Below are positions 3,548-63,443 of a stretch of 64,000 nucleotides of DNA, piece after piece. The DNA comes from Gyromitra esculenta (lineage: Eukaryota > Ascomycota > Pezizomycetes > Pezizales > Discinaceae). Below the pieces are notes generated by a model, which searched no databases, was not told the DNA's origin, and saw nothing but the letters and a program-made list of their open reading frames with translations. Position 1 is the first letter of the stretch; each line of letters begins with the position of its first letter. Both the position numbers and the translations under genes were made by a program. The stretch is from NCBI GenBank assembly GCA_038503075.1, contig JBCAML010000020.1, forward strand, positions 1-64,000, written 5' to 3'.

Positions 3548-3957
3548 TCTCAAGGAGCGAGATTCCCGTCAAGCTCTCAGGTATCCCCCGAGATAAGCAG
3601 TGCTACTTGAACGAGAAACCAACGACAGGAGAGTGTGCGAGGATTCTACAGGCTCTACTAATGGTTCAAGTTGTGATGACTTGAAGACGGCGACGGCGAA
3701 AGATTACAAGGTGTAATCCGGGGTTGTATTTGCAAGATACAGTGAGTGTACAATAGAAGACGTTGCTTAAAGAAAGAAGAAGGAAAAGTACAAGATGAGG
3801 GGAATCCCTTCGCTTATATACCACGTTCCAACTCTTTCGATGACAAAGACATGACTCATTGTAACGAGTAACCCATAGAAACACAAAGAACGCCAACGAA
3901 ATCCGACAACCATGTACCCATGTACCTAACCGATCAACATAACAACCATCCATGAAA
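3548..3957 (-). mobile_element. Element A 3' LTR
   Basis: Plus-strand ends TCTCA...TGAAA. It contains the terminal hairpin at 3565-3615, a TATATAA box in minus-strand sense (near 3816-3822) and the self-primer complement ACGTTGCTT (near 3760). A GGGGGG purine tract (3961-3968 as C on plus) lies just inside, next to the pol stop. Confidence 0.92.
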
Positions 3958-3968
3958 GTAGCCCCCCC

Positions 3969-6900
3969 TCATAGCCGTGAGCTCCTGCGAACACTAATCA
4001 CTCTTTCCCTTGGTTTATCCGGATATCGTTGGTGGAAAGAATCTACGGCCTTCGTCTCTTCATGGTACTCCGCAGGTTCCCAGGTGGGTAGTGCATAGCC
4101 AGTCCATTCGACCAAGTATTGAAGTTTTCCGCGGTGTAAACGGGAATCTAGGATAGCTTCAACAAGGTATTCCTCATGGTCGTTAACTTGAACGGGTGGG
4201 GGCGGTGTAATAATCTGACCGGGGAGTGGGTCGACGGGAGCTGCTTTGATCAACGAGACGTGGAACACAGGGTGGTACTTCATTGCTCTCGGGAGGTCAA
4301 TTTCATAGGCGTGAGCTGAAATAACACGTTTCACCGGGAAAGGGCCACTCCATTTCCAATCCAACTTCCTTGAATTCCGCGTTGTCCTCATGTTCTTCAT
4401 TGACACAAACACTTCGTCTTTTACCCTGAACATTGGAGCGGGAGTACGGTGCTGATTTGTGCTTGACTCGAAGGTATCCTGGGCTGTCCTCATCTGTACT
4501 CGGAGGAAATCTCTAAGTTCTTCCATCTTAGAAGCGAAATCGTCAGCATCGAGGGTCTGGGGAGAGCGGTCACTAGGAACAATTGAGGTGTCAAAGCGAG
4601 GGTGATAGCCATAATTCGCAAAGAAGGGCGTAGCCTTGGTACTTGCGGATTCTTGGTTATTGGCAGCGAATTCAGCGATGGGTAACCATTTTGACCAATC
4701 GTCTTGTTGATAGGAAACATAACAGCGAAGATATTGCTCCATTACGGCGTTGAGTCGTTCAGTTTGTCCATCGGTTTCTGGGTGGAAGGAGGTAGACATG
4801 CGGGCGGCAATATTCAAACGCTGACAGAGGTGCTTCCAAAACTTCGCTGTGAACTGTGTTCCCCTATCGGAGGTAAGATGGGAAGGGAGTCCATGGAGTT
4901 TCCAAACGTTTTGGAGGTATAATTCGGCGGTTTGCTCAGCATTAACGGTGGTATTACACGGGATAAGGTGTCGCATCTTCGAGAGTCGATCTACCACAAC
5001 CATAATAGCATCAAAGCCATTAGATTCTGGGAGACCGGTGACAAAGTCCATCGATAGCTCTTCCCAGGGGCGATTAGGAATTGGGAGTGGTTTCAAAACA
5101 CCATGGGTACCAAGAGTGCTTGGTTTAGCTCGTCGACAGGTATGACAGTTTCGCGTATAACGGCCAATGTACTCTCTCATCTTTGGCCAATAAAAGTGCC
5201 TTGAAATAAGTTCAAAGGATTTTTCACGTCCTGGGTGGCCAGCTGAGGGGGCATCATGGTGTCGTTGTAAAATAAAGAGGCGGAGGGGATCGTGATCAGG
5301 GATATAGAGTTTTTGCCGGTAATAAAGATGGCCGCTGATTTCACTGCAATCACCTAGGGTGATTTCCTTGGATTGTCGTTCACCATTTCTAAGTGCTAGA
5401 AGGATTTTTTGTGGGAACGGGTCAGCATTATATCCATGATTCATTAAGTTTTTAAGGGAGGCGTCCAGTTCAACGGGTTCATTTGATAAAGAACCCGAAA
5501 ACAAACTCAGCTTAGGATCAATGTTCTTCTCCTTCAAGACTACTTGGTGTTGATGTTTTAGTCTTTCATCCCCTTCTTCAGGGAGATCTCCTGATCTCCG
5601 AGTCAGTGCGTCCGGTTTTCCTCCTTGTACCCCTGGTCTATAGGTAATGACGAAGTCGAAACGTGAAAGGTATTCGGCCCATCTAACTTGTCGTCGATTA
5701 AGTTGCTTGGTGGTCATAAAATATTCCAAGTTCTTATGATCTGTAATAACAGAGATGGGTAATTCGGATCCTTCAAGTTCTGGTCTCCATTCTTCAAAAC
5801 AACGTATAATGGCGAGAAGTTCCTTATCATAAATCTCGTAGTTACACTCAGCTGGTGAATGTTTTTTGGAGAAGAAGGCTACAGGGTGGAGTACACCGTC
5901 GTCGTCAAGTTGGGAGAGAACACCGCCGGAGACGAAGTCAGAAGCATCAGATTCCACAAAGATTTTCTTTCGAGGGTCGAAGTGGACGAGAACGGGGGCT
6001 TTAGTGAAGGCATCCTTCAGGGCTTCAAATGCGAGTTCCGCTTCGACTGTCCATTCAAAGATAACACCCTTTCTTGTAAAAGCAGTAAGGGGGGCAGCTA
6101 ACCGGGAGAACCCTAGGATGAATCGTCGGTAAAAATTTGCGAAACCAAGGAAGGCTTGTACATCTTTGACTGACTTTGGGCGATTCCAGTCTCGGACGGC
6201 TTTGAGTTTATCATCGTCCATTTTAATACCTTCAGGGGTTAAGATTAGGCCGAGGTATTTGATGGATTGTACATGGAACTCGCACTTCTCGGGTTTGAGA
6301 AGGATATTATTGGCTTTTAAGGCATCGAGGACCTGTCGGACGTGTATCTTATGTTCGGCGAGGGTATCGCTGTAGATAAGGATATCATCGAGGTAGGCCG
6401 TGCAAAAGAGGTCTAAGTATTCTCGGAGAGAATCATTGACAAAGCGCTGGAAGGTACCGGGGGCATTGGTGAGGCCGAATGGCATAACCATGTATTCGTA
6501 AAGGCCGTAACGAGTCCTAAAAGCGGTCTTCCATTCTTCTCCCTCTGCGATACGGATTTGGTGAAATCCATCCCGAAGGTCTAGCTTGGAATACCATTGT
6601 GCTTTAGCGAGGCGGTCTAGGGTCTCTTTAACGAGCGGGGAGGTGTATCGGTCTTTGATGGTAAGAGCATTAAGTCCTCGGTAGTCTACACAGAGGCGTA
6701 GAGATCCATCGGGTTTTGCGGCGAAGAGGACGGGGGAACCGGCAGAGGATGAACTGGCGCGAATAAAGCCCTTCTCTAGGTTGTCTTCGATGTACTTCTT
6801 AAGGACTAGAAGTTCATCCCGTGACATACCGTAGAGGGGGCCGAATGGTGGTTCTTTGCCTTCTTGGAGGGTAATGCGATGATCATAGGGGCGACGGGGG

Positions 6901-7649
6901 GGGAGTCCTTGGGCCTTTGCTTTATCAAACATGTCCAGGTATTCGTGATACTCAGCGGGTATTCTTTGTCTCCATTCCTCTTTAGTGGTTTTGCTATCGA
7001 GGACTTTGTTTATTTCATATAGAGACATTGAATAGACCTGAATACCCTTTTTCCTGGCGAGCATGCGGAAACTGGCGGCTCCAATAAAGGCGGCGTTAAG
7101 TTTAGCCGGAGGTGGGATAGCAGCGACGGAGACAATAGGTTGTTTGGGGGCACAGTGGGTGGTGCAGAACTCAGAGTTGAATTCAATGCTTTTATTGGCG
7201 AATTGTAGGTGGACGTCATGGAGATTCATCCACGGGATGCCGAGCACTAGGGGGTAGTGTCCTAGTTTGGTGACGAAGAAGGGAGCTTTCTCGCTATGTT
7301 GTTGAATAGAAAGCTCCAAATGGCACAGATTGGTAATATCTCCCGAGGCAATTGTTCGGCCGTCAATGACTTCTAATTGGCGAGGGGTTTTAAGGGGAGA
7401 TAACGGTAGGGAATGGTGACGCACAAAATTTTCATCAATGAAAGCGAACCCTGAGGCTCCAGTGTCAAGAAGTGCGTGTGTTTTTATAACTTTATTTTGG
7501 TGGGAAAGGCTACAAGAGACTACAAAATGTTCCCCATCCAAATTATCCTCCACGCACATATCCGACACTGAAAACCCAGAAATAGAGAACGCTGACAAAG
7601 GAGAAAAAGGAACCGGAGCAGGGTCACAAGGCGACTCCGGTTGGACTAG
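3969..7649 (-). CDS. pol: Element A Pol polyprotein (PR-RT-RNaseH-IN-chromodomain)
   Basis: About 1,226 residues read in the -1 frame relative to gag, starting at the slippery site; there is no ATG at the start of the frame, so independent initiation is unlikely. Domains in order: retropepsin (LLDTGASGFAFID); RT with LCVDYRGLN, KLDLRDGFHQI and YLDDILIYSD; RNase H (FVESDASDF, DKELLAI); integrase zinc finger with HH and C-x2-C (NCHTCRRAK), catalytic core SMDFVTGLP, TSDRGTQFTAKF and SFHPETDGQTERLN; then a C-terminal chromodomain (EEYLVEAILD, LVEWTGYALPTWEP). It ends SSRL-stop next to the polypurine tract. All catalytic residues that I can see are present. The chromodomain would bind histone marks and steer integration. 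Confidence 0.95.
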   Translation of the reverse strand, partial: LVQPESPCDPAPVPFSPLSAFSISGFSVSDMCVEDNLDGEHFVVSCSLSHQNKVIKTHALLDTGASGFAFIDENFVRHHSLPLSPLKTPRQLEVIDGRTIASGDITNLCHLELSIQQHSEKAPFFVTKLGHYPLVLGIPWMNLHDVHLQFANKSIEFNSEFCTTHCAPKQPIVSVAAIPPPAKLNAAFIGAASFRMLARKKGIQVYSMSLYEINKVLDSKTTKEEWRQRIPAEYHEYLDMFDKAKAQGLPPRRPYDHRITLQEGKEPPFGPLYGMSRDELLVLKKYIEDNLEKGFIRASSSSAGSPVLFAAKPDGSLRLCVDYRGLNALTIKDRYTSPLVKETLDRLAKAQWYSKLDLRDGFHQIRIAEGEEWKTAFRTRYGLYEYMVMPFGLTNAPGTFQRFVNDSLREYLDLFCTAYLDDILIYSDTLAEHKIHVRQVLDALKANNILLKPEKCEFHVQSIKYLGLILTPEGIKMDDDKLKAVRDWNRPKSVKDVQAFLGFANFYRRFILGFSRLAAPLTAFTRKGVIFEWTVEAELAFEALKDAFTKAPVLVHFDPRKKIFVESDASDFVSGGVLSQLDDDGVLHPVAFFSKKHSPAECNYEIYDKELLAIIRCFEEWRPELEGSELPISVITDHKNLEYFMTTKQLNRRQVRWAEYLSRFDFVITYRPGVQGGKPDALTRRSGDLPEEGDERLKHQHQVVLKEKNIDPKLSLFSGSLSNEPVELDASLKNLMNHGYNADPFPQKILLALRNGERQSKEITLGDCSEISGHLYYRQKLYIPDHDPLRLFILQRHHDAPSAGHPGREKSFELISRHFYWPKMREYIGRYTRNCHTCRRAKPSTLGTHGVLKPLPIPNRPWEELSMDFVTGLPESNGFDAIMVVVDRLSKMRHLIPCNTTVNAEQTAELYLQNVWKLHGLPSHLTSDRGTQFTAKFWKHLCQRLNIAARMSTSFHPETDGQTERLNAVMEQYLRCYVSYQQDDWSKWLPIAEFAANNQESASTKATPFFANYGYHPRFDTSIVPSDRSPQTLDADDFASKMEELRDFLRVQMRTAQDTFESSTNQHRTPAPMFRVKDEVFVSMKNMRTTRNSRKLDWKWSGPFPVKRVISAHAYEIDLPRAMKYHPVFHVSLIKAAPVDPLPGQIITPPPPVQVNDHEEYLVEAILDSRLHRGKLQYLVEWTGYALPTWEPAEYHEETKAVDSFHQRYPDKPRERVISVRRSSRL

Positions 7650-8893
7650 TTTAAAGACTCAACTGAGTCTGCTGCATCAAAAGCAGGAAAGCGAGGAGGC
7701 AGAGGCGGCGGAAAAACAGAGGGAGCTGGAGGTGCGGCGGCGGCATTGGTGACGGCTCCTCTCATAGCGGGGCGCTTGGAGGCAGAAGGGCAGTTTGAGA
7801 AAATATGCCCTTCTCCGGCGCAGAACAAACAGCGATTATTTGTTTGTCTCCAGGATTTCTCTTCAGGGGACAGTTTTCTTCTTCCGTTTATCTGAACATA
7901 TCGTTGTTCAGGGGCAGGGCGAGAGGTGGAGGTGCGACCGAAGGAGAGGTCCATAGGGGCAAGTCCTCCAGGGGCGAAAGAGGAGGAAGCGGGAGTATAA
8001 GCGGCGGGGGCGGCGGCAGGGGCGGCGAATTGTCCCATGGTGTTGCGGACAGAATTTTTTTTCTCTTCTCTTCTTGCTCGGATTCGGTTATCTAAGCGGA
8101 GGAGGAAGGCGCAGAGGGAAGTGAAAGTAGTGGGGAAGTCAGCGACAGTCACTACCGCTTCTTTCAGCTCGTCTGACATGCCGAACTCTAGAGCATCATT
8201 CTTGGCTGACTCATCGTAGTTGAGGCGTCCCATGATGCGTTGAAAGTCGGCAAGGTAGGCGGAGAAGTCTCGTTTCCCTTGTCTGAGTTGGTGTAGTTCG
8301 CGGCGGGCAGTACCGAGAGGGTCGGGATCGCCGAAGGCTGTTTCCAAGGCGGTGATCAAATCGGCGGCGGAGTTCCAGGTGGTAGTTCCGTCAGGAAGGA
8401 CGGAGTGGCGAACTTGTTCGAGAGCGGCTCCCTCGAGACGGCTAATAGCATACAACACCATGTTGTTGCTATTGGAAAAACGGTCGGCATTGACCGAGAG
8501 CTTTGACCTGAGTTGCAGAACGAACCCGGGGAGTTTATCGCGAGACCCGTTGAACTTATCTGGGTCAGGCATTTTATCCGAGCGGCCTCCTTGAGTGTGA
8601 GCAGGAGGGGGTGGCGGCGATGGTGCAGGCGGTGGAGGAGCGGCGTTTTGGAGGCGGGCGATTTCCGTTTCGGCTGCCTGCAACTGGGATTGGCAGGTAT
8701 TGAACCTGGCCGTCATGTTGTTTCTTTCTTGGGTAGCTTCCTCAAGTTGCAAGTCTGCGTAGGTGAGGTTATCTACTCGCTGTTGGTAGTGCGAGCGGAT
8801 TTCCTCATAGGCGGAGGCGAGGTCGGCATTGGCGGCGGCTTGGAAGTTCTCAAAGGTAGGGAAGGTCCAGGGGGCGGGAGCGGGGTTGCTCAT
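7646..8893 (-). CDS. gag: Element A Gag
   Basis: 415 residues. I start at the ATG giving MSNPAPAPWTF, because copies B and D start at the equivalent ATG and the longer reading would begin inside the LTR. The N-terminal half contains a heptad-like coiled-coil stretch (DLQLEEATQERNNM), followed by a proline-rich linker and a capsid-like region (PDPDKFNGSRDKLPGFVLQL, FGDPDPLGTARRELHQLRQG). A CCHC zinc knuckle, C-x2-C-x4-H-x4-C (CLFCAGEGHIFSNC), lies near the C-terminus. The protein packages element RNA into virus-like particles. It ends ESLN-stop inside the frameshift signal. Confidence 0.94.
   Translation of the reverse strand: MSNPAPAPWTFPTFENFQAAANADLASAYEEIRSHYQQRVDNLTYADLQLEEATQERNNMTARFNTCQSQLQAAETEIARLQNAAPPPPAPSPPPPPAHTQGGRSDKMPDPDKFNGSRDKLPGFVLQLRSKLSVNADRFSNSNNMVLYAISRLEGAALEQVRHSVLPDGTTTWNSAADLITALETAFGDPDPLGTARRELHQLRQGKRDFSAYLADFQRIMGRLNYDESAKNDALEFGMSDELKEAVVTVADFPTTFTSLCAFLLRLDNRIRARREEKKNSVRNTMGQFAAPAAAPAAYTPASSSFAPGGLAPMDLSFGRTSTSRPAPEQRYVQINGRRKLSPEEKSWRQTNNRCLFCAGEGHIFSNCPSASKRPAMRGAVTNAAAAPPAPSVFPPPLPPRFPAFDAADSVESLN
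7649..7655 (-). promoter_or_regulatory. -1 ribosomal frameshift site T TTA AAC (element A)
   Basis: On the minus strand the gag codons TCT TTA AAC TAG form the X XXY YYZ heptamer T TTA AAC directly before the gag stop. Slipping back one base gives CTA GTC CAA CCG, which is the open pol frame. Site and frame relation are identical in B, beta and D. The downstream RNA structure was not folded. Confidence 0.85.
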
Positions 8894-8939
8894 GGTGACG
8901 TCAGAAGTGGATGGGTATTGGTAGAGGGTGTAGATAGGG

Positions 8940-8950
8940 AAGCAACGTAA
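8940..8950 (-). other. Element A primer-binding site, self-priming type
   Basis: Minus-strand TTACGTTGCTT directly follows the 5' LTR. ACGTTGCTT (8940-8948) is the perfect complement of AAGCAACGT (9163-9171) near the predicted RNA 5' end. No TGG-type tRNA complement follows the LTR, which argues for Tf1-like self-priming. Confidence 0.75.
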
Positions 8951-9360
8951 TCTCAAGGAGCGAGATTCTCGTCAAGCTCTCAGGTATCCCCCGAGATAAG
9001 CAGTGCTACTTGAACGAGAAACCAACGACAGGAGAGTGTGCGAGGATTCTACAGGCTCTACTAATGGTTCAAGTTATGATGACTTGAAGACGGCGACGGC
9101 GAAAGATTACGAGGTGTAACCTGAGGTTGTATTTGCAAGATACAGCGAGTGTACAATAGAAGACGTTGCTTAAAGAAAGAAGAAGGAAAAGTACAAGATG
9201 AGGGGAATCCCTTCGCTTATATACCACGTTCCAACTCTTTCGATGACAAAGACATGACTCATAGTAACGAGTAACCCATAGAAACACAAGGAACACCAAC
9301 GAAATCCGACAACCATGTACCCATGTACCTAACCGATCAACATAACAACCATCCATGAAA
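8951..9360 (-). mobile_element. Element A 5' LTR
   Basis: 410 bp, minus-strand ends TTTCA...TGAGA. It holds a TATATAA box near 9219-9225, then a pyrimidine-rich stretch and the AAGCAACGT self-primer at 9163-9171, giving a plausible start 45-50 bp after the TATA. The structured leader runs from there to the LTR end. Confidence 0.92.
8968..9143 (-). promoter_or_regulatory. Structured LTR leader RNA: four covarying hairpins
   Basis: Four hairpins lie between the RNA start and the PBS (plus coordinates): GTAT/ATAC at 9129-9143; GATTAC/GTAACC at about 9105-9121; TTCAAGT/ACTTGAA at 9068-9088; and a terminal bipartite hairpin at 8968-9018. In sense, the terminal hairpin is an outer stem CTCGTTCAAG/CTTGACGAG enclosing the linker TAGCACTGCT and an inner hairpin CTCGGG-GGATA-CCTGAG. 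Other LTRs here have different stems that still pair, with the same GGATA loop and TAGCACTG linker. See the findings for the comparison. The function is unknown; packaging, priming or translation control are possible. Confidence 0.7.
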
Positions 9361-9488: not shown

Positions 9489-9493
9489 TACTG

Positions 9494-9670: not shown

Positions 9671-10008
9671 TCTCAGGGGGCGAGGTTTATAATGTTCCAC
9701 AGGCTCTACGAAGTGTTTCAAGTATAGAAGACTTGAGGACGGCGACAGCGTAAGGTTATCTGGTGTAACCGAGGTTTGTATTTGTAGAATACGAAAGGTA
9801 CAATAGAAGACGTTGCTTAAGGAAAGAAGAAGGAAAAGTACAACAAGAGGGGGAATCCCTTCGCTTATATACCTCATTCCAACTCGTTCGATGACAAAGA
9901 CTTGACTCATTGCAACGGAAACCCAAAGAAACATAAGGAACAACAACGTGACACAATAACCTTGCACCCGTATACCCGACGAACCAACGAAAACAGTCAT
10001 CCATGAAA
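9671..10008 (-). mobile_element. Element B 3' LTR
   Basis: 338 bp, starting TCTCAGGGGGCGAGG on plus and ending CCATGAAA. The purine-rich strand of the adjoining 10009-10020 forms the polypurine tract. It keeps the TCAAGT/ACTTGA, GGTTA/TAACC and GTATT/AATAC hairpins, the ACGTTGCTT self-primer complement and a TATATAA box, but not the terminal GGATA-loop hairpin. Confidence 0.9.
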
Positions 10009-10020
10009 GTACCCCCTCCT

Positions 10021-13000
10021 TTATAGCCGTGAGCTCCTGCGAACACTAACCAGTCCTTCCTTGGGTTTACTCGGATATTGTCGGTGAAATACATCCACTG
10101 CTTCAGTCTCCGTATGATAGTTAGCTGGTTCCCACGTAGGCAAGGCATAACCTGTCCATTCAACCAGATATTGCAGTTTTCCATAACGAATACGAGAATC
10201 TAGGATACTCTCGACAAGATATTCTTCATGATCGTTGACTTGAACCGGGGGTGGTGGTGGGATAATCTGGCCCGGGAGTGGGTCAACAGGGGCAGCTTTG
10301 ATCAGTGAGACGTGAAATACTGGATGGTATTTCATGGACGGTGGCAAGTCGATTTCATAGGCATGCGCAGAGATTATTCGTTTCACAGGGAAGGGACCAC
10401 TCCACTTCCAGTCCAATTTCCTAGAATTCCTAGTCGTCCTCATGTTCTTCATGGATATGAAGACAAGGTCGTTGACCTTGAATGAAGGGGCGGGGGTACG
10501 GTGTTGATTGGCACTGGACTCGAAAGTATCTTGTGCTGTCCTCATTTGAACTCGAAGGAAGTCTCTAAGTTCTTCCATCTTAGAGGCAAAGTCATTGGCA
10601 TCGAGGGTTTGGGGGGAGCGGTCGTTTGAAACAACGGAAGTATCAAAGCGGGGATGGTAACCATAGTTGGCGAAGAAGGGTGTAGCTTTCGTACTAGCTG
10701 ACTCTTGGTTATTAGCAGCGAACTCCGCGATAGGTAACCATTTTGTCCAGTCGTCTTGTTGGTAAGAAACATAGCACCGAAGATATTGTTCCATAACGGC
10801 ATTAAGACGTTCGGTTTGACCATCTGTTTCTGGATGGAAAGACGTTGACATCCGAGCGGAGATATTCAGGCGTTGGCAAAGATGTTTCCAAAACTTAGCG
10901 GTAAACTGCGTTCCTCTGTCCGAAGTAATATGGGAAGGTAGTCCATGGAGTTTCCAGACATTTTGGAGGTAGAGTTCAGCTGTTTGCTCGGCGTTGACGG
11001 TTGTATTGCAAGGAATAAGGTGCCGCATCTTCGAGAGTCGATCCACCACAACCATAATAGCATCGAAGCCGTTAGACTCTGGGAGACCGGTAACGAAGTC
11101 CATTGATAGCTCTTCCCAAGGGCGATTAGGAATTGGGAGTGGTTTCAGGACGCCTTGGGTACCGAGGGTGCTTGGTTTTGCTCGTCGACAGATATGACAG
11201 TTCCGCGTATAACGGCCAATATACTCTCTCATCTTCGGCCAATAAAAATGCCTTGAGACGAGTTCAAAGGATTTTTCGCGTCCCGGGTGACCGGCTGATG
11301 GGGCGTCATGATGTCGTTGTAGAATGAGGAGGCGAAGAGGGTCGTGATCGGGGACATAGAGCTTTTGTCGGTAGAATAAGCGGTTATTGGTTTCAGTACA
11401 ATCGCCTAAGGTGATTTCCTTAGATTGTCGTTCCCCATTTCTAAGTGCTAGAAGGATTTTTTGTGGGAACGGGTCAGCGATATATCCTTGATTCATTAAT
11501 TCTTCGAGGGGGGCATCCAATTCAGCGGGTTCGTTTGATAAAGAACCCGAAAACAAACTCAACTTAGGGTCAACGTTCTTCTCCTTTAAGACTACTTGGT
11601 GTTGGTGTCTTAGTCTTTCATCCCCTTCTTCAGGGAGATCTCCTGATCTCCGAGTCAGTGCATCCGGTTTTCCTCCTTGTACTCCTGGTCTATAGGTAAT
11701 AACGAAGTCAAAACGTGAAAGGTATTCGGCCCATCTAACTTGTCGTCGATTAAGTTGCTTGGTGGTCATGAAATATTCCAAGTTTTTATGGTCAGTAATA
11801 ACCGAGATGGGTAGTTCTGATCCTTCAAGCTCTGGTCTCCATTCCTCGAAACAGCGTATAATCGCAAGAAGTTCCTTGTCATAAATCTCGTAGTTGCATT
11901 CAGCAGGTGAATGCTTCTTGGAGAAGAAAGCTACAGGATGAAGTACGCCGTTATCGTCAAGTTGGGAGAGAACACCACCGGAGACGAAGTCGGAAGCATC
12001 GGATTCCACGAAGATTTTCTTCCGGGGGTCGAAGTGGATGAGGACGGGGGCCTTGGTAAAGGCATCTTTCAGGGCTTCGAACGCGAGTTCCGCTTCGACT
12101 GTCCATTCAAAGACAACACCTTTTCTTGTAAAAGCAGTAAGGGGGGCGGCTAGTCGGGAGAATCCTAGGATGAATCGCCGGTAAAAATTTGCGAAGCCAA
12201 GGAAAGCTTGTACATCTTTGACTGACTTTGGACGGTTCCAATCTCGGACGGCTTTAAGTTTATCATCGTCCATTTTTATACCTTCGGGGGTTAGTATTAG
12301 GCCCAGGTATTTGATGGATTGCACGTGGAACTCGCACTTCTCAGGTTTGAGAAGGATATTATTGGCCTTAAGTGCGTCGAGGACCTGTCTGACATGTATC
12401 TTATGTTCGGCGAGGGTATCGCTATAAATTAGGATATCGTCAAGATAAGCGGTGCAGAAGAGGTCTAGGTATTCTCGGAGGGAATCGTTTACGAATCGTT
12501 GGAATGTGCCGGGGGCGTTGGTAAGGCCGAATGGCATTACCATATACTCATATAGGCCATATCGAGTTCGGAAGGCAGTTTTCCATTCCTCTCCTTCGGC
12601 GATGCGGATCTGATGAAAGCCATCACGTAGGTCAAGTTTTGAGTACCATTGAGCTTTCGCAAGTCGATCCAGTGTTTCCTTGACCAAAGGGGAGGTGTAA
12701 CGATCTTTTATCGTGAGAGCATTAAGGCCACGGTAGTCCACGCACAGACGAAGGGATCCGTCAGGTTTAGCGGCGAAGAGGACTGGGGAGCCGGCAGAAG
12801 AAGAACTAGCACGGATAAAGCCTTTTTCCAGATTGTCTTCGATATATTTCTTGAGAACTAGAAGTTCATCTCGTGACATACCATAAAGTGGGCCAAATGG
12901 TGGTTCCTTGCCTTCTTGCAGGGTGATCTTATGGTCATAAGGTCGTCGGGGGGGGAGTCCTTGAGCTTTAGCCTTGTCAAACATATCTAGGTATTCGTGG

Positions 13001-13701
13001 TACTCGGCGGGTATTCGTTGTCTCCACTCTTCTTTGGTAGTCTTGCTATCAAGGACTCTGTTAATTTCGTAGAGGGACATGGAATACACTTGAATACCCT
13101 TCTTCCTGGCGAGCATGCGGAAGCTAGCTGCGCCAATAAAGGCGGCATTTAGTTTTGCTGGAGGAGGAATGGCGGCGGCTGAGACGACGGGTTGCTTGGG
13201 GGCACAGTGGGTGGTGCAGAATTCAGAATTGAATTCAATGCTTTTGTTCGCAAATTGTAGATGAACGTCATGGAGGTTCATCCAAGGGATACCGAGTACT
13301 AGGGGGTAATGGCCTAGCTTGGTAACGAAGAAGGGGGCTTTCTCAGTATGCTGCTGGATGGAAAGTCCTAGATGGCAAAGATTTGTAATATCTCCCGAGG
13401 CAATTGTTCGGCCGTCAATGACTTCCAATTGGCGAGGGATTTTTAGGGGAGATAAGGGAAGGGAATGGTGACGCACGAAGTTTTCATCGATGAAAGCGAA
13501 CCCTGAGGCTCCAGTGTCAAGAAGTGCGTGTGTTTTTATGATTTTATTTTGGTGGGAGAGACTACATGAAACTACAAAATGTTCCCCATCCAAATTATCC
13601 TCCACACACACATCCGACACTGAAAACCCAGAAATAGAGAACGCTGACAAAGGAGAAAAAGGAACCAGAGCAGGGTCACATGGCGACTCTGGTTGAACTA
13701 G
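10021..13701 (-). CDS. pol: Element B Pol polyprotein (PR-RT-RNaseH-IN-chromodomain)
   Basis: About 1,226 residues, the same length and domain order as element A Pol. Seen in order are DTGASGFAFID (protease), YLDDILIYSD (RT), ESDASDF (RNase H), H-H and C-x2-C of the integrase zinc finger (NCHICRRAK), SMDFVTGLP, TSDRGTQFTAKF, ETDGQTERLN, and a chromodomain with LVEWTGYALPTWEP. The frame opens at the slippery site without an ATG. It is uninterrupted with catalytic motifs intact, and it differs from A by scattered, mostly conservative changes concentrated near the RNase H/integrase linker and the C-terminal tail. Together with the near-identical LTRs this is the best candidate here for an active element. 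Confidence 0.95.
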   Translation of the reverse strand, partial: LVQPESPCDPALVPFSPLSAFSISGFSVSDVCVEDNLDGEHFVVSCSLSHQNKIIKTHALLDTGASGFAFIDENFVRHHSLPLSPLKIPRQLEVIDGRTIASGDITNLCHLGLSIQQHTEKAPFFVTKLGHYPLVLGIPWMNLHDVHLQFANKSIEFNSEFCTTHCAPKQPVVSAAAIPPPAKLNAAFIGAASFRMLARKKGIQVYSMSLYEINRVLDSKTTKEEWRQRIPAEYHEYLDMFDKAKAQGLPPRRPYDHKITLQEGKEPPFGPLYGMSRDELLVLKKYIEDNLEKGFIRASSSSAGSPVLFAAKPDGSLRLCVDYRGLNALTIKDRYTSPLVKETLDRLAKAQWYSKLDLRDGFHQIRIAEGEEWKTAFRTRYGLYEYMVMPFGLTNAPGTFQRFVNDSLREYLDLFCTAYLDDILIYSDTLAEHKIHVRQVLDALKANNILLKPEKCEFHVQSIKYLGLILTPEGIKMDDDKLKAVRDWNRPKSVKDVQAFLGFANFYRRFILGFSRLAAPLTAFTRKGVVFEWTVEAELAFEALKDAFTKAPVLIHFDPRKKIFVESDASDFVSGGVLSQLDDNGVLHPVAFFSKKHSPAECNYEIYDKELLAIIRCFEEWRPELEGSELPISVITDHKNLEYFMTTKQLNRRQVRWAEYLSRFDFVITYRPGVQGGKPDALTRRSGDLPEEGDERLRHQHQVVLKEKNVDPKLSLFSGSLSNEPAELDAPLEELMNQGYIADPFPQKILLALRNGERQSKEITLGDCTETNNRLFYRQKLYVPDHDPLRLLILQRHHDAPSAGHPGREKSFELVSRHFYWPKMREYIGRYTRNCHICRRAKPSTLGTQGVLKPLPIPNRPWEELSMDFVTGLPESNGFDAIMVVVDRLSKMRHLIPCNTTVNAEQTAELYLQNVWKLHGLPSHITSDRGTQFTAKFWKHLCQRLNISARMSTSFHPETDGQTERLNAVMEQYLRCYVSYQQDDWTKWLPIAEFAANNQESASTKATPFFANYGYHPRFDTSVVSNDRSPQTLDANDFASKMEELRDFLRVQMRTAQDTFESSANQHRTPAPSFKVNDLVFISMKNMRTTRNSRKLDWKWSGPFPVKRIISAHAYEIDLPPSMKYHPVFHVSLIKAAPVDPLPGQIIPPPPPVQVNDHEEYLVESILDSRIRYGKLQYLVEWTGYALPTWEPANYHTETEAVDVFHRQYPSKPKEGLVSVRRSSRL

Positions 13702-14945
13702 TTTAAAGACTCGACAGAGTCTGCTGCATCAAAGGCAGAAAAGCGAGGTGGTAGAGGCGGTGGAAAGACAGAAGGAGCAGGAGGAGCGGCGGCGGCATTA
13801 ATAACAGCTCCCCTCATAGCGGGGCGCTTGGAGGCGGATGGGCAGTTGGAAAAAATATGTCCTTCTCCTGCGCAGAACAGACAGCGATTATTGGTTTGTC
13901 TCCAGGACTTCTCTTCAGGGGACAGTTTTCTCCTTCCGTTTATTTGAACATATCGTTGTTCAGGGGCGGGGCGAGAGGTGGAGGTGCGGCCGAATGAGAG
14001 ATCCATGGGGACAAGCCCACCAGGGGCGAAGGACGACGAAGCGGGGGTATAGGCGGCGGGGGCAGCGGCAGGGGCGGTGAATTGTCCCATGGTGTTGCGG
14101 ACAGCATTTTTCTTCTCCTCTCTTCTTGCTCGGATTCGGTTATCCAGGCGGAGGAGGAAAGCGCAGAGGGAAGTGAAGGTAGTGGGGAAGTCAGCAACAG
14201 TCACTACCGCTTCTTTCAGCTCGTCCGACATGCCGTACTCCAGAGCGTCATTTTTGGCCGACTCATCGTAGTTGAGGCGTCCCATGATGCGTTGAAAGTC
14301 AGCAAGGTAAGCGGAGAAGTCTCGCTTCCCTTGTCGGAGTTGGTGCAATTCGCGGCGGGCAGTGCCGAGAGGGTCGGGATCGCCGAAGGCTGATTCCAGA
14401 GCGGTGATCAAATCGGCAGCGGAGTTCCATGTGGTAGTTCCGTCAGGGAGGACGGAGTGGCGAACTTGTTCGAGAGCGGCTCCCTCAAGGCGGCTGATGG
14501 CATATAACACCATGTTGTTGTTGTTGGAGAATCGGTCGGCGTTGACTGAGAGCTTCGATCTGAGTTGGAGAACAAACCCAGGGAGTTTATCGCGAGACCC
14601 ATTGAACTTATCTGGGTCAGGCATTTTATCCGAACGGCCTCCTTGTGTGTGAGCGGGAGGGGGTGGCGGCGACGGTGCAGGTGGTGGGGGAGCGACATTT
14701 TGCAGGCGGGCGATTTCTGCTTCGGCTGCCTGTAATTGGGATTGGCAGGTATTAAATCTTGCCGTCATGTTGTTACGCTCTTGTGTGGCCTCTTCCAGCT
14801 GTAGGTCTGCATATGTGAGGTTGTCGACCCGTTGTTGATAATGGGATCGGATTTCCTCATAGGCAGAGGCGAGGTCGGCGTTGGCGGCGGCCTGGAAGTT
14901 CTCGAAGGTTGGGAAGGTCCAGGGGGCGGGGGCGGGGTTGCTCAT
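13698..14945 (-). CDS. gag: Element B Gag
   Basis: 415 residues starting MSNPAPAPWTF, with the same architecture as A Gag: coiled-coil-like N-terminal half, PPPPAPSPPPPP linker, capsid-like segment with GTARRELHQLRQGKRDFSAY, and CCHC knuckle CLFCAGEGHIFSNC. It ends ESLN-TAG overlapping the frameshift heptamer. The start is supported by the same position in A and D. Confidence 0.94.
   Translation of the reverse strand: MSNPAPAPWTFPTFENFQAAANADLASAYEEIRSHYQQRVDNLTYADLQLEEATQERNNMTARFNTCQSQLQAAEAEIARLQNVAPPPPAPSPPPPPAHTQGGRSDKMPDPDKFNGSRDKLPGFVLQLRSKLSVNADRFSNNNNMVLYAISRLEGAALEQVRHSVLPDGTTTWNSAADLITALESAFGDPDPLGTARRELHQLRQGKRDFSAYLADFQRIMGRLNYDESAKNDALEYGMSDELKEAVVTVADFPTTFTSLCAFLLRLDNRIRARREEKKNAVRNTMGQFTAPAAAPAAYTPASSSFAPGGLVPMDLSFGRTSTSRPAPEQRYVQINGRRKLSPEEKSWRQTNNRCLFCAGEGHIFSNCPSASKRPAMRGAVINAAAAPPAPSVFPPPLPPRFSAFDAADSVESLN
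13701..13707 (-). promoter_or_regulatory. -1 ribosomal frameshift site T TTA AAC (element B)
   Basis: Minus-strand codons TCT TTA AAC TAG at the end of gag. A slip of -1 on T TTA AAC leads into the pol frame, which is open from here to 10021. Confidence 0.85.
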
Positions 14946-15001
14946 GGTGGCGTTTGAGGGTGGTGTGGCAGTGTGTAAAAGCGGGGTAGAGGGTGTGGAT
15001 G

Positions 15002-15300
15002 AGGAAGCAACGTAATCTCACTTCCTCAATTGTTGCTAGAGTCTGCGTTGTTACAGACACTTGCGATGGTATTGACGCGGAGGTACTCGGAATCTAGCCA
15101 CTCAGGTAGGACTAGCGAGGGCTCAGTGGTCTCTGTAGGTTTTCGCGATGTCACACAAGGGAACAAACACACAAAGGATTGATGAATCCAAGTTGTAAAG
15201 CCCATGAAGTAAGTATGACTCCAAGGGGGTTTGAACACGTGGCCTTGTGTGGGAAAAGGTACACAGTATACCGCTGAGCTAAGGAAGCAACGTAATCTCA
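15002..15300 (-). mobile_element. tRNA-derived SINE-like insert at the element B LTR/PBS junction
   Basis: About 261 bp (15021-15281) flanked by 19-bp direct repeats (15002-15020 and 15282-15300) that duplicate the LTR end plus PBS. On the minus strand it begins TAGCTCAGCGG, a perfect pol III A-box (15271-15281), followed 45 nt later by GTTCAAACC, a B-box (15228-15236). This is the spacing found in tRNA genes. It does not fold as a full tRNA, since the acceptor and T stems do not pair. The long TSD fits LINE-mobilised SINE insertion. No poly(A) tail is seen. Confidence 0.65.
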
Positions 15301-15633
15301 AGGGGCGAGGTTTATAATGTTCCACAGGCTCTACGAAGTGTTTCAAGTATAGAAGACTTGAGGACGGCGACAGCGTAAGGTTATCTGGTGTAACCGAGGT
15401 TTGTATTTGTAGAATACGAAAGGTACAATAGAAGACGTTGCTTAAGGAAAGAAGAAGGAAAAGTACAACAAGAGGGGGAATCCCTTCGCTTATATACCTC
15501 ATTCCAACTCGTTCGATGACAAAGACTTGACTCATTGCAACGGAAACCCAAAGAAACATAAGGAACAACAACGTGACACAATAACCTTGCACCCGTATAC
15601 CCGACGAACCAACGAAAACAGTCATCCATGAAA
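15296..15633 (-). mobile_element. Element B 5' LTR
   Basis: 338 bp, identical to the 3' LTR except near its start (TCTCAAGGGG against TCTCAGGGGG). TATATAA, the self-primer sequence and three of the four leader hairpins are present; the terminal hairpin block is absent. Confidence 0.9.
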
Positions 15634-19501: not shown

Positions 19502-19912
19502 TTTCATGGATGGTTGTTACAGTGATCGGTTAGGTACATGGGTACACGGTTGTCGAGTTTCGTTGTCGTTCTTTGTGTTTCTATGAGTTTTTCGTTACAA
19601 TGAGTCATGTCTTTGTCATCGAAAGAGTTGGAACGTGGTATATAAGCGAAGGGATTTCCCCTCATCTTGTACTTTTCCTTCTTCTTTCTTTAAGCAACGT
19701 CTTCTATAGCACACTCACTGTATTCTACCAATACATCCATAGATTACACCTCGTAATCTTTCGCCGTCGCCGTCTTCAAGTTACCTCAACTTGAACCCTT
19801 TGTAGAGCCTGTAGAATCCTCGCACCTTCTCCTGTCGTTGGATTTTCGTTCAAGTAGCACTGCTCATCTCGGGGGATACCTGAGAGCTTGACGAGAATCT
19901 CGCTCCTTGAGA
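19502..19912 (+). mobile_element. Element D 5' LTR
   Basis: 411 bp, TTTCA...TGAGA. It has TATATAA near 19640, self-primer AAGCAACGT at 19692-19700, a TTCAAGTT/AACTTGAA hairpin (19777-19797), and the terminal hairpin with GGATA loop (19846-19894). Confidence 0.9.
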
Positions 19913-19925
19913 TTACGTTACTTCC
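19913..19925 (+). other. Element D primer-binding site
   Basis: TTACGTTACTTCC directly after the LTR. It pairs with the D self-primer AAGCAACGT except for one position (ACGTTACTT against ACGTTGCTT in A, B and beta), which could weaken priming. Confidence 0.65.
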
Positions 19926-19970
19926 ATATCTACACCCTCTACCAATTACCCGCCTACTTTCAACGTCACC

Positions 19971-21218
19971 ATGAGCAGCTCCACTCCCGCCCCCTGGACC
20001 TTCCCTACCTTTGAGAACTTCCAAGCCGCCGCCAACGCCGATCTCGCCTCCGCCTACGAGGAAATCCGCTCGCACTACCAACAGCGAGTAGATAACCTCA
20101 CCTACGCGGACCTACAACTTGAGGAAGCTACTCAAGAAAGAAACAATATGACAGCCAGATTCAATACCTGCCAGTCCCAGTTGCAGGCAGCCGAAGCAGA
20201 AATCGCCCGCCTCCAAAACGCCGCTCCCCCACCACCTGCACCATCGCCGCCACCCCCTCCGGCTCACACTCAAGGAGGCCGCTCGGATAAAATGCCTGAC
20301 CCAGATAAGTTCAATGGGTCCCGTGATAAACTCCCCGGATTCGTTTTACAACTCCGGTCGAAACTCTCGGTTAACGCCGACCGCTTCTCAAACAGCAACA
20401 ATATGGTATTGTATGCTATTAGCCGCCTCGAGGGAGCCGCCCTTGAACAAGTTCGCCACTCCGTCCTTCCTGACGGAACTACCACCTGGAACTCCGCCGC
20501 CGACCTGATCACCGCCTTGGAAACAGCCTTCGGCGACCCCGACCCCCTCGGTACCGCCCGCCGTGAACTGCACCAACTCCGACAAGGGAAGCGAGATTTC
20601 TCTGCCTATCTTGCCGATTTTCAACGCATCATGGGGCGCCTCAACTATGATGAGTCAGCGAAAAACGATGCTCTGGAGTTCGGCATGTCGGACGAACTAA
20701 AAGAAGCAGTAGTGACTGTTGCCGACTTCCCCACCACCTTCACTTCCCTCTGCGCCTTCCTTCTCCGCTTGGACAACCGAATCCGAGCAAGAAGGGAAGA
20801 AAAGAAAAACGCCGTCCGTAACACCATGGGACAATTCGCCGCCCCTGCCGCCGCCCCCGCCGCCTTTACTCCTGCTTCCTCCTCCTTCGCCCCTGGAGGA
20901 CTGGTCCCCATGGATCTCTCTTTCGGTCGTACTTCCACCTCTCGTCCCGCCCCTGAACAACGATATGTTCAAGTAAATGGAAGAAGAAAACTATCTCCAG
21001 AAGAGAAATCCTGGAGACAAACCAATAATCGCTGCCTATTCTGCGCTGGGGAAGGACATATCTTTTCGAACTGCCCTTCTGCCTCCAAGCGCCCCGCCAT
21101 GAGAGGGGCCGTCACTAATGCCGCCGCCGCACCACCAGCTCCCTCTGTTTTTCCGCCGCCGCTGCCCCCTCGCTTTCCTGCTTTCGATGCAGCAGACTCA
21201 GTTGAGTCTTTAAACTAG
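19971..21218 (+). CDS. gag: Element D Gag
   Basis: 415 residues beginning MSSSTPAPWTF; the ATG is 58 bp after the LTR, matching A and B. It is intact, with coiled-coil-like N-terminus, proline-rich linker, capsid-like LHQLRQGKRDFSAYLADFQR and CCHC knuckle CLFCAGEGHIFSNC, ending ESLN-TAG. It would make particle structural protein, but D Pol is interrupted, so mobility would need a helper. Confidence 0.94.
   Translation: MSSSTPAPWTFPTFENFQAAANADLASAYEEIRSHYQQRVDNLTYADLQLEEATQERNNMTARFNTCQSQLQAAEAEIARLQNAAPPPPAPSPPPPPAHTQGGRSDKMPDPDKFNGSRDKLPGFVLQLRSKLSVNADRFSNSNNMVLYAISRLEGAALEQVRHSVLPDGTTTWNSAADLITALETAFGDPDPLGTARRELHQLRQGKRDFSAYLADFQRIMGRLNYDESAKNDALEFGMSDELKEAVVTVADFPTTFTSLCAFLLRLDNRIRARREEKKNAVRNTMGQFAAPAAAPAAFTPASSSFAPGGLVPMDLSFGRTSTSRPAPEQRYVQVNGRRKLSPEEKSWRQTNNRCLFCAGEGHIFSNCPSASKRPAMRGAVTNAAAAPPAPSVFPPPLPPRFPAFDAADSVESLN
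21209..21215 (+). promoter_or_regulatory. -1 ribosomal frameshift site T TTA AAC (element D)
   Basis: Gag codons TCT (21207) TTA (21210) AAC (21213) TAG (21216). Slipping back one base makes the next codon CTA at 21215-21217, and the pol frame is open from there through 21266 onward. Confidence 0.87.
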
Positions 21219-24200
21219 TTCAACCGGAGTCGCATTGTGACCCTGCTCCGGTTTCTTTTTCTTCTTTGTCAGCGTTCTCTATTTCTGGGTTCTCAGTGTC
21301 AGATGTATGCGTGGAGGATAATTTGGATGGGGAGCACTTTGTAGTTTCTTGTAGTCTCACCCACCAAAATAAAATTATAAAAACACACGCACTTCTTGAC
21401 ACTGGGGCCTCAGGGTTCGCTTTCATTGATGAAAACTTCGTGCGTCACCATTCCCTGCCATTGTCTCCCCTTAAAAACCCTCGCCAATTGGAAGTCATTG
21501 ACGGCCGAACAATTGCCTCAGGAGATATTACCAATCTCTGCCACTTGGAACTTTCTATTCAACAACATAACGAGAAAGCTCCCTTCTTCGTCACCAAACT
21601 AGGACACTACCCCCTAGTGCTCGGTATCCCGTGGATGAATCTTCATGACGTCCACCTACAATTCGCCAACAAAAGCATTGAATTCAACTCTGAATTCTGC
21701 ACTACCCACTGTGCCTCCAAACAACCTATTGTTTCCGTCGCCGCCATCCCGCCTCCAACTAAGCTTAACGCCGCCTTTATTGGAGCCGCCAGTTTCCGCA
21801 TGCTCGCTAGAAAAAAGGGTATTCAGGTCTATTCGATGTCTCTATATGAAATAAACAAAGTCCTCGATAGCAAAACCACTAAAGAGAAATGGAGACAAAG
21901 GATACCCGTAGAGTACCATGAATACCTAGACATGTTTGACAAAGCAAAAGCCCAAGGACTCCCCCCCCGTCGCCCTTATGATCATCGCATTACCCTCCAA
22001 GAGGGCAAAGAACCACCATTCGGTCCCCTCTACGGTATGTCACGAGATGAACTTCTAGTCCTTAAGAAGTACATCGAAGACAACCTAGAGAAGGGTTTTA
22101 TTCGCGCTAGTTCATCTTCTGCCGGTTCCCCCGTTCTCTTCGCCGCAAAACCCGACGGATCTCTACGTCTCTGCGTAGACTATCGAGGCCTTAATGCCCT
22201 CACCGTCAAAGACCGATACACCTCCCCGCTTGTTAAAGAGACCCTCGATCGCCTCGCTAAAGCACAATGGTATTCCAAACTAGACCTTCGAGACGGATTT
22301 CACCAAATCCGCATCGCAGAGGGAGAAGAATGGAAGACCACTTTTAGGACTCGTTATGGCCTCTACGAATACATGGTTATGCCATTCGGCCTCACCAATG
22401 CCCCCGGTACCTTCCAGCGCTTTGTCAATGATTCTCTCCGAGAATATTTGGACCTCTTTTGTACAGCTTATCTTGACGATATCCTTATTTATAGTGATAC
22501 CCTTGCTGAACATAAAAGCCACGTCCGACAAGTCCTTGACGCCTTGAAAGCCAATGATATACTTCTCAAACCTGAGAAGTGCGAATTCCACGTCCAATCC
22601 ATAAAATACCTCGGACTAATCCTCACACCTGAAGGGATCAAGATGGACGAAGAGAAACTCAAAGCCGTACGAGACTGGAACCGCCCAAAATGCATTAAAG
22701 ACGTCCAAGCCTTCCTCGGTTTTGCAAACTTCTACCGACGATTTATCCTGGGATTCTCTCGCCTGGCAGCACCCCTCACCTCTTTTACAAAAAAAGGTAT
22801 CGTTTTCGAATGGACAATCGAGGCAGAACTCGCATTTGAAGCCCTGAAAGATGCCTTTACCAAAGCCCCTGTACTCATCCACTTCGACCCTCGAAAGAAG
22901 ATCTTTGTGGAATCGGATGCTCCTGACTTCGTCTCCGGTGGTGTCCTCTCCCAATTCGACGATAGTGGTGTACTCCACCCTGTAGCATTCTTTTCTAAGA
23001 AACACTCACCGGCTGAATGTAATTACGAAATCTACGATAAGGAATTACTAGCCATTATCCGTTGCTTTGAGGAATGGCGCCCTGAGCTCGAAGGCTCTGA
23101 ACTCCCTATCTCTGTCATCACGGATCATAAAAATCTGGAATACTTTATGACCACTAAGCAACTGAACCGAAGACAAGTCAGATGGGCCGAATACCTTTCA
23201 CGTTTCGACTTTGTCATTACATATAGACCAGGAGTACAAGGAGGAAAGCCGGATGCATTGACTCGGAGATCAGGAGATCTCCCTGAAGGAGATGAAAGAC
23301 TACGACACCAACACCAAGTAGTCCTGAAGGAGAAGAATCTGGACCCTAAGCTGAGTTTGTTTTCGGGTTCTTTACTAAACGAACCCGCTGAATTGGATGC
23401 CACCCTTGAAACCCTAATGAATCAAGGATACAACGCTGACCCGTTCCCACGAAAAATCCTTTTAGCACTTAGGAATGGCGAACGATAATCCAAGGAAATT
23501 ACCTTAGGCGATTGTACCGAGATGAATAGCCGCCTCTTCTACCGACAAAGACTTTATATTCCTGATTATGATCCTCTTCGCCTCCTTATCCTACAGCGAC
23601 ACCATGACGCCCCCTCTGCCGGCCACCCAGGACGTGAAAAATCCTTTGAACTCATCTCAAGATGCTTTTACTGGCCAAAGATGAGAGAATACATCGGACG
23701 TTATACCCGGAATTGTCATATTTGCCGACGAGCAAAACCAAGCACCCTCGGTACCCACGGCGTTCTAAAACCACTCCCAATCCCCAACCGCCCCTGGGAA
23801 GAATTGTCGATGGACTTCGTTACTGGCCTCCCAGAATCTAACGGCTTTGATGCCATTATGGTCATCGTGGATCGACTTTCGAAAATGCGACACCTTGTCC
23901 CGTGTAATACTACCGTTAACACAGAACAGACTGCCGAGCTATACCTCCAAAACGTATGGAAACTCCATGGACTTCCCTCTCATATTACTTCCGATAGAGG
24001 AACACAGTTCACCGCAAAGTTTTGGAAGCACCTCTGTCAGCGTTTGAATATTGCCGCCCGCATGTCTACATCCTTTCACCCAGAGACTGATGGACAAACT
24101 GAACGACTCAACGCCGTGATGGAGCAATACCTCCGTTGTTACGTCTCCTACCAGCAGGACGACTGGTCAAAGTGGTTACCCATCGCTGAATTCGCCACCA

Positions 24201-24892
24201 ATAACAAAGAATCCACAAGTACCAAAGCTACGCCCTTCTTTCCGAATTATGGCTATCACCCTCGCTTCGATACCTCAATCGTTCCTAATGACCGCGCTCC
24301 CCAGACCCTCGATGCTGAAGGCTTCGCCTCCAAGATGGAAGAACTCAGAGACTTCCTCCGAGTACAGATGAGGACAGCCCAAGATATCTTCGAGTCAAGT
24401 ACAAACCGACACTGCACTCCTGCTCCAGTGTTCAGAGAAAAGGACGAAGTGTTTGTGTCAATGAAGAACATGAGGACGACTCGAAACTCAAGGAAGTTGG
24501 ATTGGAAATGGAGTGGCCCTTTTCCGGTGAAACGCGTTATTTCAGCTTATGCCTATGAAATTGACCTCCCAAGATCAATGAAGTATCACCCCGTGTTCCA
24601 CGTCTCGTTGATCAAAGCAGCTCCCGTCGACCCACTCCCCGGTCAGATTATTACACCACCCCCACCAGTTCAAGTGAATGACCATGAGGAATACCTCGTT
24701 GAAGCTATTCTAGATTCCCGTTTACACCGTGGAAAACTCCAATACTTGGTCGAATGGACTGGCTATGCACTACCCACCTGGGAACCCGCGGAGTACCATG
24801 AAGAAACGGAAGCTGTGGATTCTTTCCACCAACGATACCCGGATAAACCAAGGGAAAGAGCGATTAGTGTTCGCAGGAGCTCACGGCTATGA
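21215..24892 (+). pseudogene. pol: Element D Pol polyprotein with one nonsense codon
   Basis: About 1,225 codons in the same frame throughout, one codon shorter than A (a glutamate missing in DLPEGDERL). A TAA at 23486-23488 replaces the glutamine codon of the GERQSKEI segment between RNase H and integrase; the frame continues at once afterwards. Protease DTGASGFAFID, RT YLDDILIYSD, integrase SMDFVTGLP, TSDRGTQF and ETDGQTERLN, and the chromodomain are otherwise intact. The RNase H motif reads SDAPDF instead of SDASDF. Truncation would remove integrase and chromodomain unless the stop is suppressed. Confidence 0.93.
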
Positions 24893-24903
24893 GGGGGGGC
24901 TAC

Positions 24904-63263: not shown

Positions 63264-63443
63264 GGGGGTAGTCCTACTGCTCCGTAGTGGGAATAGGTAT
63301 AGGAATACGGCCGTTGCAAATACTAAATCAGGTTGAGATGTTTGAAGAGTATTTCGTGCAAGGTACTCAATAATCTTAAGGGCTCTACTCGGTAGTATTT
63401 TTTATCTGATGAGACTGGGAAGAAGAGCAACAGGTGTCGGGGT

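Follow-up and report, generated by a model that had tools for sequence, protein, structure and literature searches.

What the structured leader RNA encoded in this LTR is for is the question that the locus raises. Within the window (the whole 64,000-nucleotide stretch of the Gyromitra esculenta genome analysed here, which is the start of one contig), a sequence-only reading had described four successive hairpins at 8968..9143 and had left their role (packaging, priming, IRES or cleavage) as unknown. That was too cautious: a primer complementary to a post-LTR site, a long-range duplex (P3) and a chromodomain Pol point to self-priming, and we consider it likely that the interval belongs to the R-U5 leader of a self-priming chromodomain retrotransposon of the Tf1/sushi type. 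Complementarity, covariation of the helices H2, H3, H4 and P3, LTR ends, copy numbers and protein domains were computed directly, and the features are collected in Table 1.

Table 1. Element A, its leader and its relatives, in window coordinates
Feature	Position	Strand	Basis or remark
LTR retrotransposon A	3548..9360	-	5′ LTR 8951-9360, 3′ LTR 3548-3957; self-BLAST and Pfam
TATA-like box TATATAAG	9216..9223	-	TATWTAAG ahead of the primer in most LTR copies
Self-primer AAGCAACGT (P1 5′ strand, predicted RNA 5′ end)	9163..9171	-	complementary to the PBS
H1 hairpin GTAT..ATAC	9128..9144	-	weakly supported
H2 hairpin, 6 bp	9105..9121	-	loop ACCTC or ATCTC in 61/85 leaders; covariation
Conserved linker CGCYGTCGCYGTY	9089..9101	-	between H2 and H3; alignments
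H3 hairpin	9068..9088	-	tree-based nulls; pair 100-112 significant in the all-pairs test
P3 5′ strand GTAGAGCCTGTAGA	9048..9061	-	conserved LTR block between H3 and H4; covariation
H4 terminal domain	8964..9021	-	covariance model match of 79.1 bits; predicted three-way junction
H4 outer stem	9009-9018 with 8968-8976	-	
H4 mini-hairpin	8999-9007	-	
H4 GGATA hairpin	8978-8996	-	
LTR 3′ end TGAGA	8951..8955	-	target duplications outside the LTR ends
PBS ACGTTGCTT (P1 3′ strand)	8940..8948	-	two T (2 nt) between LTR and PBS
P3 3′ strand TCTACACCCTCTAC	8921..8934	-	5 nt past the PBS; genome counts and pairing in 18 leaders
Beta element	9671..15633	-	both LTRs without H4
Second element of A's family	19502..25308	+	LTRs 19502-19912 and 24904-25308; same leader
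Gamma-type 5′ LTR	26702..27124	-	same architecture; compensated P3, GTAGAACTTGTAG with CTACATCTTCTAC

The stems quoted by that reading are present on the minus strand, inside the 5′ LTR of element A, and a covariance model of the terminal hairpin, run over the window, recovers 12 copies with E ≤ 2.2e-7, besides one chance-level match (E 0.14). The first 30 kb of the window consist of nested LTR retrotransposons, with one more LTR copy at 63443-63853, and the LTR pair of element A is 97.6% identical over a 412-bp self-BLAST alignment. Its frame pieces match the Pfam families RVT_1 (1.4e-38), RT_RNaseH (1e-33), rve (1.7e-12) and Chromo (9.5e-9), as well as Retrotrans_gag and DUF4939, with SH3_Tf2-1 just under the cut-off, and they follow the Ty3/gypsy Pol order of RT-RNase H-integrase with a C-terminal chromodomain. 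The RT-RNase H piece shares 72% identity, with 85% of the piece covered, with the ‘Transposon Tf2-9 polyprotein’ of Podosphaera aphanis, and most of the other named proteins among the 120 relatives listed for this piece are likewise fungal. The best matches in PDB were chains of Ty3 RT and integrase, and a search of NCBIfam returned weak, irrelevant matches only. Judged by similarity, element A is a fungal chromodomain Ty3/gypsy element of the Tf1/Tf2 type. Elsewhere among the nested copies, a frame at 1226-3145 (plus strand) resembles by eye the reverse transcriptase of a non-LTR retrotransposon and is flanked at both ends by LTR copies (838-1215 and from about 3015 on), and a gamma-type LTR at 3015-3226 (minus strand) carries a 106-nt tandem duplication of its terminal part including H4.

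The termini of the LTR were examined in 93 distinct copies with both ends, drawn from genomic loci and the window. Exact 5-bp duplications lie outside TTTCATGG..TGAGA in 22 of these copies, against a mean of 0.43 with shuffled partners. The 93 can be sorted into 47 that are followed by the PBS, 19 others that are preceded by ..TAC, AAC or GAC like 3′ LTRs (one with a duplication), and 27 remaining copies that look solo, 21 with a duplication and six with none. The duplications and this sorting together place the LTR termini at TTTC..GAGA, not TG..CA. Upstream of the primer, TATWTAAG is found in 85 of the 93 copies, in 84 of these at 50-55 nt before AAGC, and given this near-fixed distance and the pyrimidine-rich run after the box, the RNA 5′ end would lie at AAGC, with the A of AAGCAACG as the predicted start.

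Leaders were collected as 96 primer-to-LTR-end sequences, reduced to 91 by dropping those shorter than 205 or longer than 245 nt and then to 85 by removing near-duplicates of at least 98.5% and a leader whose tail was foreign; letters of the P3 3′ arm are present in 43 of the 85. All come from one genome (47.1 Mb in 23 contigs), in which copies were also counted, and scans of IMG/VR yielded no second species, the H4 pattern giving 0 matches and the RT piece 27 pattern matches with 0 confirmed as relatives. For each helix, 500 null data sets were simulated on a FastTree tree, with the root state and the number of substitutions of every column kept.

The 85 leaders contain 24 ATG, about 157 being expected from shuffles, and U3 has about five ATG per copy; such depletion fits a 5′ UTR that would be scanned by ribosomes better than an IRES. 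This bears on the notion that the leader is an IRES or a self-cleaving ribozyme, two of the roles listed earlier, for which a compact structured 5′ leader with conserved loops would speak. We give it hardly any credence, since, besides the ATG depletion, Rfam offers no match, ribozymes included, at the gathering threshold in the window and none up to E 5 in 8900-9800. The earlier reading could not assign the RNA to a known family, and no Rfam model matches it; the leader does, however, show the signs of Tf1/sushi self-priming.

One of these signs is helix P1. The predicted RNA start AAGCAACGU is the perfect complement of the nine bases ACGUUGCUU just past the LTR, which means that an RNA 5′ end placed from the position of the TATA-like box matches a PBS beside the 5′ LTR over 9 nt. 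The self-primer motif TTAAGCAACGTNCT has 1,239 copies in the genome against 2 of a control, and the LTR end joined to the PBS (GAGATTACGTTGCTTCC) has 403 against 0 of a reversed control. P1 is the longest conserved helix in an unbiased all-helix scan of the leader alignment (9 bp, 98.5%), and 99.4% of its cells are paired in a separate count of 18 leaders. Its 98.5% pairing exceeds a null mean of 94.8% and is reached by 117 of 500 nulls; covariation says nothing about P1, because primer and PBS hardly vary. In 84 of 85 leaders UCUY, which follows the primer, could lengthen the helix by pairing with GAGA at the end of the LTR; this extension likewise hardly varies. Some Ty3/gypsy elements use tRNAs, and a host tRNA or other RNA might prime at the post-LTR site, the match to the RNA 5′ end being a coincidence. 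tRNA priming would need a site beginning with TGG, and the site here reads TTACGTTGC; judged on the TGG start alone, the post-LTR sequence TTACGTTGCTT does not fall with the tRNA-primed Ty3/gypsy elements. Since in the families compared the site is also complementary to the predicted RNA 5′ end over exactly 9 nt and without a mismatch, we regard priming by another RNA as very unlikely.

Between primer and PBS lie the local hairpins, for which compensatory changes had been claimed, a claim that the simulations uphold. Pairing reaches 98.8% in H2 (null 69.7%), 98.2% in H3 (null 59.4%) and 98.0% in inner H4 (null 57.9%), values attained by none of the 500 nulls in each case. The outer stem of H4 pairs at 98.4% in its upper part (null 75.1%; 1 of 500 nulls) and at 77.6% in its lower part, where the alignment is poor (null 52.1%; 6 of 500). 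Same-branch compensatory co-substitutions number 11 in H2, six in H3, seven in inner H4 and three in the two parts of outer H4, and by a cruder measure, the number of double-change pairs, the nulls out of 500 that equal the observed value or better number 99 (H2), 13 (H3), 39 (inner H4) and 9 (P3). An independent count used 18 leaders, a subset of 38 aligned ones with the tail extended in four: 96.4% of 954 cells are paired, against 34-44% in slid structures, and 94 cells show double changes, against 28.7 in shuffles (0 of 500). Four of the six H2 pairs show double changes in this count, and H3 stands at only 87.3%, since 13 of the 18 leaders lack its outermost pair; in the TTCAAGT/ACTTGAA stem proposed earlier, that pair forms in only five. 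Support for the proposed GTATT/AATAC hairpin (H1) is weak: 40 of 85 leaders have a stem of at least 5 bp, compared with 18.5 after mononucleotide shuffling. H2, H3 and H4 thus stand out of the four hairpins suggested, and they are only part of the structure. The linker CGCYGTCGCYGTY, seen in element A and other leaders, has no pairing partner that we could find there and is possibly a protein site.

The terminal domain H4 is predicted to be more elaborate than a simple hairpin with a linker. Its stems are as had been described, and the domain would form a three-way junction: in the 10 local folds shown, the outer stem opens into two hairpins, a mini-hairpin of 3 bp and one of 7 bp with the loop GGAUA. 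The supposed linker TAGCACTG corresponds to this predicted mini-hairpin (AGC-ACU-GCU, with AGC-UCU-GCU in one of the 10 folds), and it is near-invariant rather than strictly invariant, 79 of 85 leaders reading TAGCACTGCTCA or TAGCACTGCTTA. Inside the junction, 3′ of UAGCACUG, seven pairs form in 77 of 85 leaders, and the 12-mer AGTAGCACTGCT has 2,129 copies in the genome against 6 of a reversed control. The junction left by the H4 deletion in the beta element occurs genome-wide, with up to two mismatches allowed, only at beta's own two LTRs; the deletion may date from the last replication cycle, and it was rejected as proof that H4 is dispensable because it then shows nothing of the kind. At 25310-25366 (plus strand) a diverged H4 domain with other stems (32.9 bits) is fused to the 3′ LTR end of the second element of A's family, and a DNA search finds it a single time in the genome.

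The interval first proposed contains the hairpins and omits one strand or both of two long-range helices, P1 and P3. P3 is a 12-bp helix with a central 2x2 internal loop, whose arms, about 110 nt apart, join a conserved LTR block that the first reading had not listed to sequence past the PBS. It was first spotted within the window, in element A and the gamma family, and then checked on genomic copies. The TGAGATT..CTACANCNTCTAC junction has 246 copies in the genome against 0 of a control, and the spacer between PBS and P3 is variable in sequence with a length of 5-6 nt in the matches shown. Both arms are in range in 52 of 57 distinct junctions examined; in 47 of the 52 all 11 positions tested are Watson-Crick pairs, and the other five contain either a G.U pair or one to two mismatches. 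Three pairs that differ between families are paired in all 52 by way of A-U/G-C switches, giving the variants GTAGAA/TTCTAC, GTAGGA/TCCTAC, GTAGAG/CTCTAC and TGTGG/CCACA. In the 18-leader count all 216 P3 cells are paired, and the 98.5% pairing (null 85.9%) is reached by 0 of 500 tree-based nulls. Pair-specific nulls give 0.002, 0.000 and 0.014 for the three family-variable pairs and 0.15-0.36 for the other variable pairs, which thus lack covariation, and there are three same-branch co-substitutions. The evidence for P3 is a handful of independent switches, and all copies come from one genome.

Since all sequences come from a single genome, shared ancestry and gene conversion might create such patterns without selection on structure. 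An R-scape-like all-pairs G-test with APC, the kind of check that had been suggested, could be read in favour of this, as 2 of 33,930 pairs are individually significant, one in H3 (E below 1/60) and one in inner H4 (E 0.017). This test has low power given the two deep clades, which is why targeted helix tests were used, and these gave far stronger results: nulls with equal substitutions per column never reach the pairing of H2, H3, inner H4 or P3, and slid structures pair far less, as given above. We therefore hold ancestry alone to be extremely unlikely. A palindromic pattern acting as DNA, for example as integrase or host protein sites, has in its favour that LTR ends are integrase substrates and that H4 falls in the last 70 bp or so of the LTR. 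On the sense strand, however, G.U outnumbers A.C by 82 to 25 over five helices (counts of cells, many of which are inherited states of few pairs), namely 13/2 in H2, 30/7 in H3, 7/3 in outer H4, 31/10 in inner H4 and 1/3 in P3, which alone lacks the excess. This points to sense RNA rather than to a DNA palindrome, and P3 moreover pairs the LTR with non-LTR sequence, which makes action at the DNA level highly unlikely. Selection on RNA shape, as had been claimed, is thus supported by compensatory changes that beat tree-based nulls and by the G.U excess.

H4, the LTR end and the PBS all lie inside P3, and the RNA 5′ end would pair into this enclosed domain; P1 and P3 would hence cross as a ‘pretzel’-like pseudoknot, for which the covariation of P3 supplies the duplex between LTR and PBS-flanking sequence. 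In pseudoknot-free folding the mean pair probability is 0.85 for P1, 0.76-0.93 for H2, H3 and H4 and 0.09 for P3, the last being low because such folding cannot combine P3 with P1, and the two helices would have to be formed simultaneously. The z-score of the fold energy averages -2.1 over 15 leaders, five of which are above -1. Among the leader pairings tested, no convincing candidate for a second flanking ‘pretzel’ duplex was found, the pairings being at control level or invariant. A kissing pair between the H2 loop and the LTR end was tried and rejected (81.2% against a null of 75.9%, reached by 164 of 500 nulls), as was its 4-bp version, which 10 of 500 nulls reach and an unrelated control stretch matches at 15 of 500.

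One subfamily counts against self-priming through this pseudoknot. Inside the beta element, an insert of about 275 bp at 15021-15295 (minus strand) lies between two LTR-end/PBS copies. It has 20 genome matches at 94-100%, 16 of them directly after LTR end and PBS and 16 followed by a second PBS start, and the insert-bearing subfamily seems to have multiplied. In these 16 copies the insert separates the first PBS from the downstream sequence, and in the window's copy the P3 3′ arm is found beyond the second PBS and some 280 nt away from the first one. Tract letters resembling the A-box and B-box of a tRNA can be seen in the insert by eye, and Rfam gave no tRNA match for it, only one chance match (E 4.7). 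A reading as a SINE is unproven, 19 of the 20 matches adjoining PBS or LTR-end sequence on one side or the other.

In the scheme that we infer for self-priming, which covers the RNA start, the coexistence of P1 and P3, cleavage, priming and protein contacts, the RNA would begin with AAGCAACGU and its 5′ end would fold back on ACGUUGCUU, two nt past the LTR, to form P1. P3 would join the LTR block after H3 to sequence 5-6 nt past the PBS and close a domain with H4, the LTR end and the PBS, the crossing by P1 making the pseudoknot. H4 would stand in place of the retroviral U5-IR stem-loop and, by analogy, probably position reverse transcriptase, and H2 and H3 would fill the other loop, where they may serve Gag. 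RNase H would then cut after the primer, the new 3′ end would prime minus-strand DNA, and the two T that separate the LTR from the PBS would enter the DNA copy and be trimmed at integration.

The conserved hairpins, H4 above all, may instead serve chiefly to package or dimerise the genomic RNA through Gag binding, with P1 as the sole requirement of self-priming, which we think rather unlikely. A near-palindrome in H4, AGCA-C-UGCU, could pair between two RNAs, but it has a central C.C mismatch and is predicted to form the local mini-hairpin. Loop and junction sequences that stay conserved while stems change would fit recognition by a protein, and in Ty1, signals for translation, packaging and priming lie together at the 5′ terminus of the RNA (PMC5454406); against this stands the location of H4 just before the PBS, inside the domain that P3 closes. 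A bolder variant of the self-priming scheme, which we hold to be improbable, takes H4 as a new three-way-junction module with a near-fixed junction and loop (UAGCACUGCU, GGAUA) that would stand in for a portion of the tRNA within the priming complex. One of its strands, AAGUAGC, can itself pair with the PBS bases that the primer would bind (seven pairs in 99.7% of cells, reached by 165 of 500 nulls), and this pairing might switch the RNA between translated or packaged and priming forms.

Compared with the retroviral PBS domain, P3 resembles the U5-leader stem that closes it, and H4 the U5-IR hairpin before the PBS; a U5-IR-like structure is reportedly known in Tf1, to go by the title of one study. 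The difference is that retroviruses use a tRNA there, for which the RNA's own 5′ end would substitute in the Gyromitra element. Ty1 of Saccharomyces cerevisiae, a tRNA-primed member of the Copia superfamily, also has a leader pseudoknot. Its 5′ leader carries those cis signals for translation, packaging and priming, in which the present one may resemble it.

The closest known systems are Tf1 and Tf2 of Schizosaccharomyces pombe, which are chromodomain Ty3/gypsy elements with an RNA 5′ end complementary to the PBS. In Tf1, 11 bases of the RNA 5′ end are complementary, RNase H cuts between bases 11 and 12, and the RNA folds into a ‘pretzel’ of three duplexes (PMC7175516; PMC10085805). Differences are the primer, 11 nt in Tf1 and 9 nt here, and the leader of about 240 nt with several extra helices; P3 matches one of the flanking duplexes of the Tf1 pretzel, and the other was not identified here with confidence. 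A predicted self-primer and ‘pretzel’ fold are also described for Tj1 and for Tosmo and Tcry of fission yeasts (PMC4600332; PMC10085805), and hairpin priming in several chromoviruses (PMC3601003). Self-priming is not universal in such elements, as in SM-Tcn1 neither tRNA priming nor self-priming was evident (PMC2864245). The last two nucleotides of 5′ LTRs in fission-yeast elements are always CA according to a legend in PMC10085805, whereas the element here has TTTCATGG..TGAGA with 5-bp target duplications. The folds of Tosmo, Tcry and Tj1 rest on visual inspection of predicted secondary structures (PMC10085805), and the one presented here on covariation across genomic copies.

The open-access literature, to which our search was mostly confined, gave descriptions of self-priming and pretzel folds for fission-yeast elements; in it we saw no description of the Gyromitra leader and no covariation test of a pretzel fold. 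Pretzel folds have so far come, in the parts of the sources available, from experiments in Tf1 and from predicted structures for its relatives. The 1,239 self-primer motif copies in one genome allow an evolutionary test, in which P3 and three hairpins change sequence and keep pairing, and they turn a proposed fold into a specific model at base-pair resolution. The model suggests a way for a retrovirus-like PBS domain to function when no tRNA takes part, and it singles out H4 as a candidate domain for recognition by reverse transcriptase or Gag. Self-priming itself is known from Tf1/sushi elements; the 9-nt primer, the LTR ends other than TG..CA and the elaborate leader are what would set the Gyromitra leader apart.
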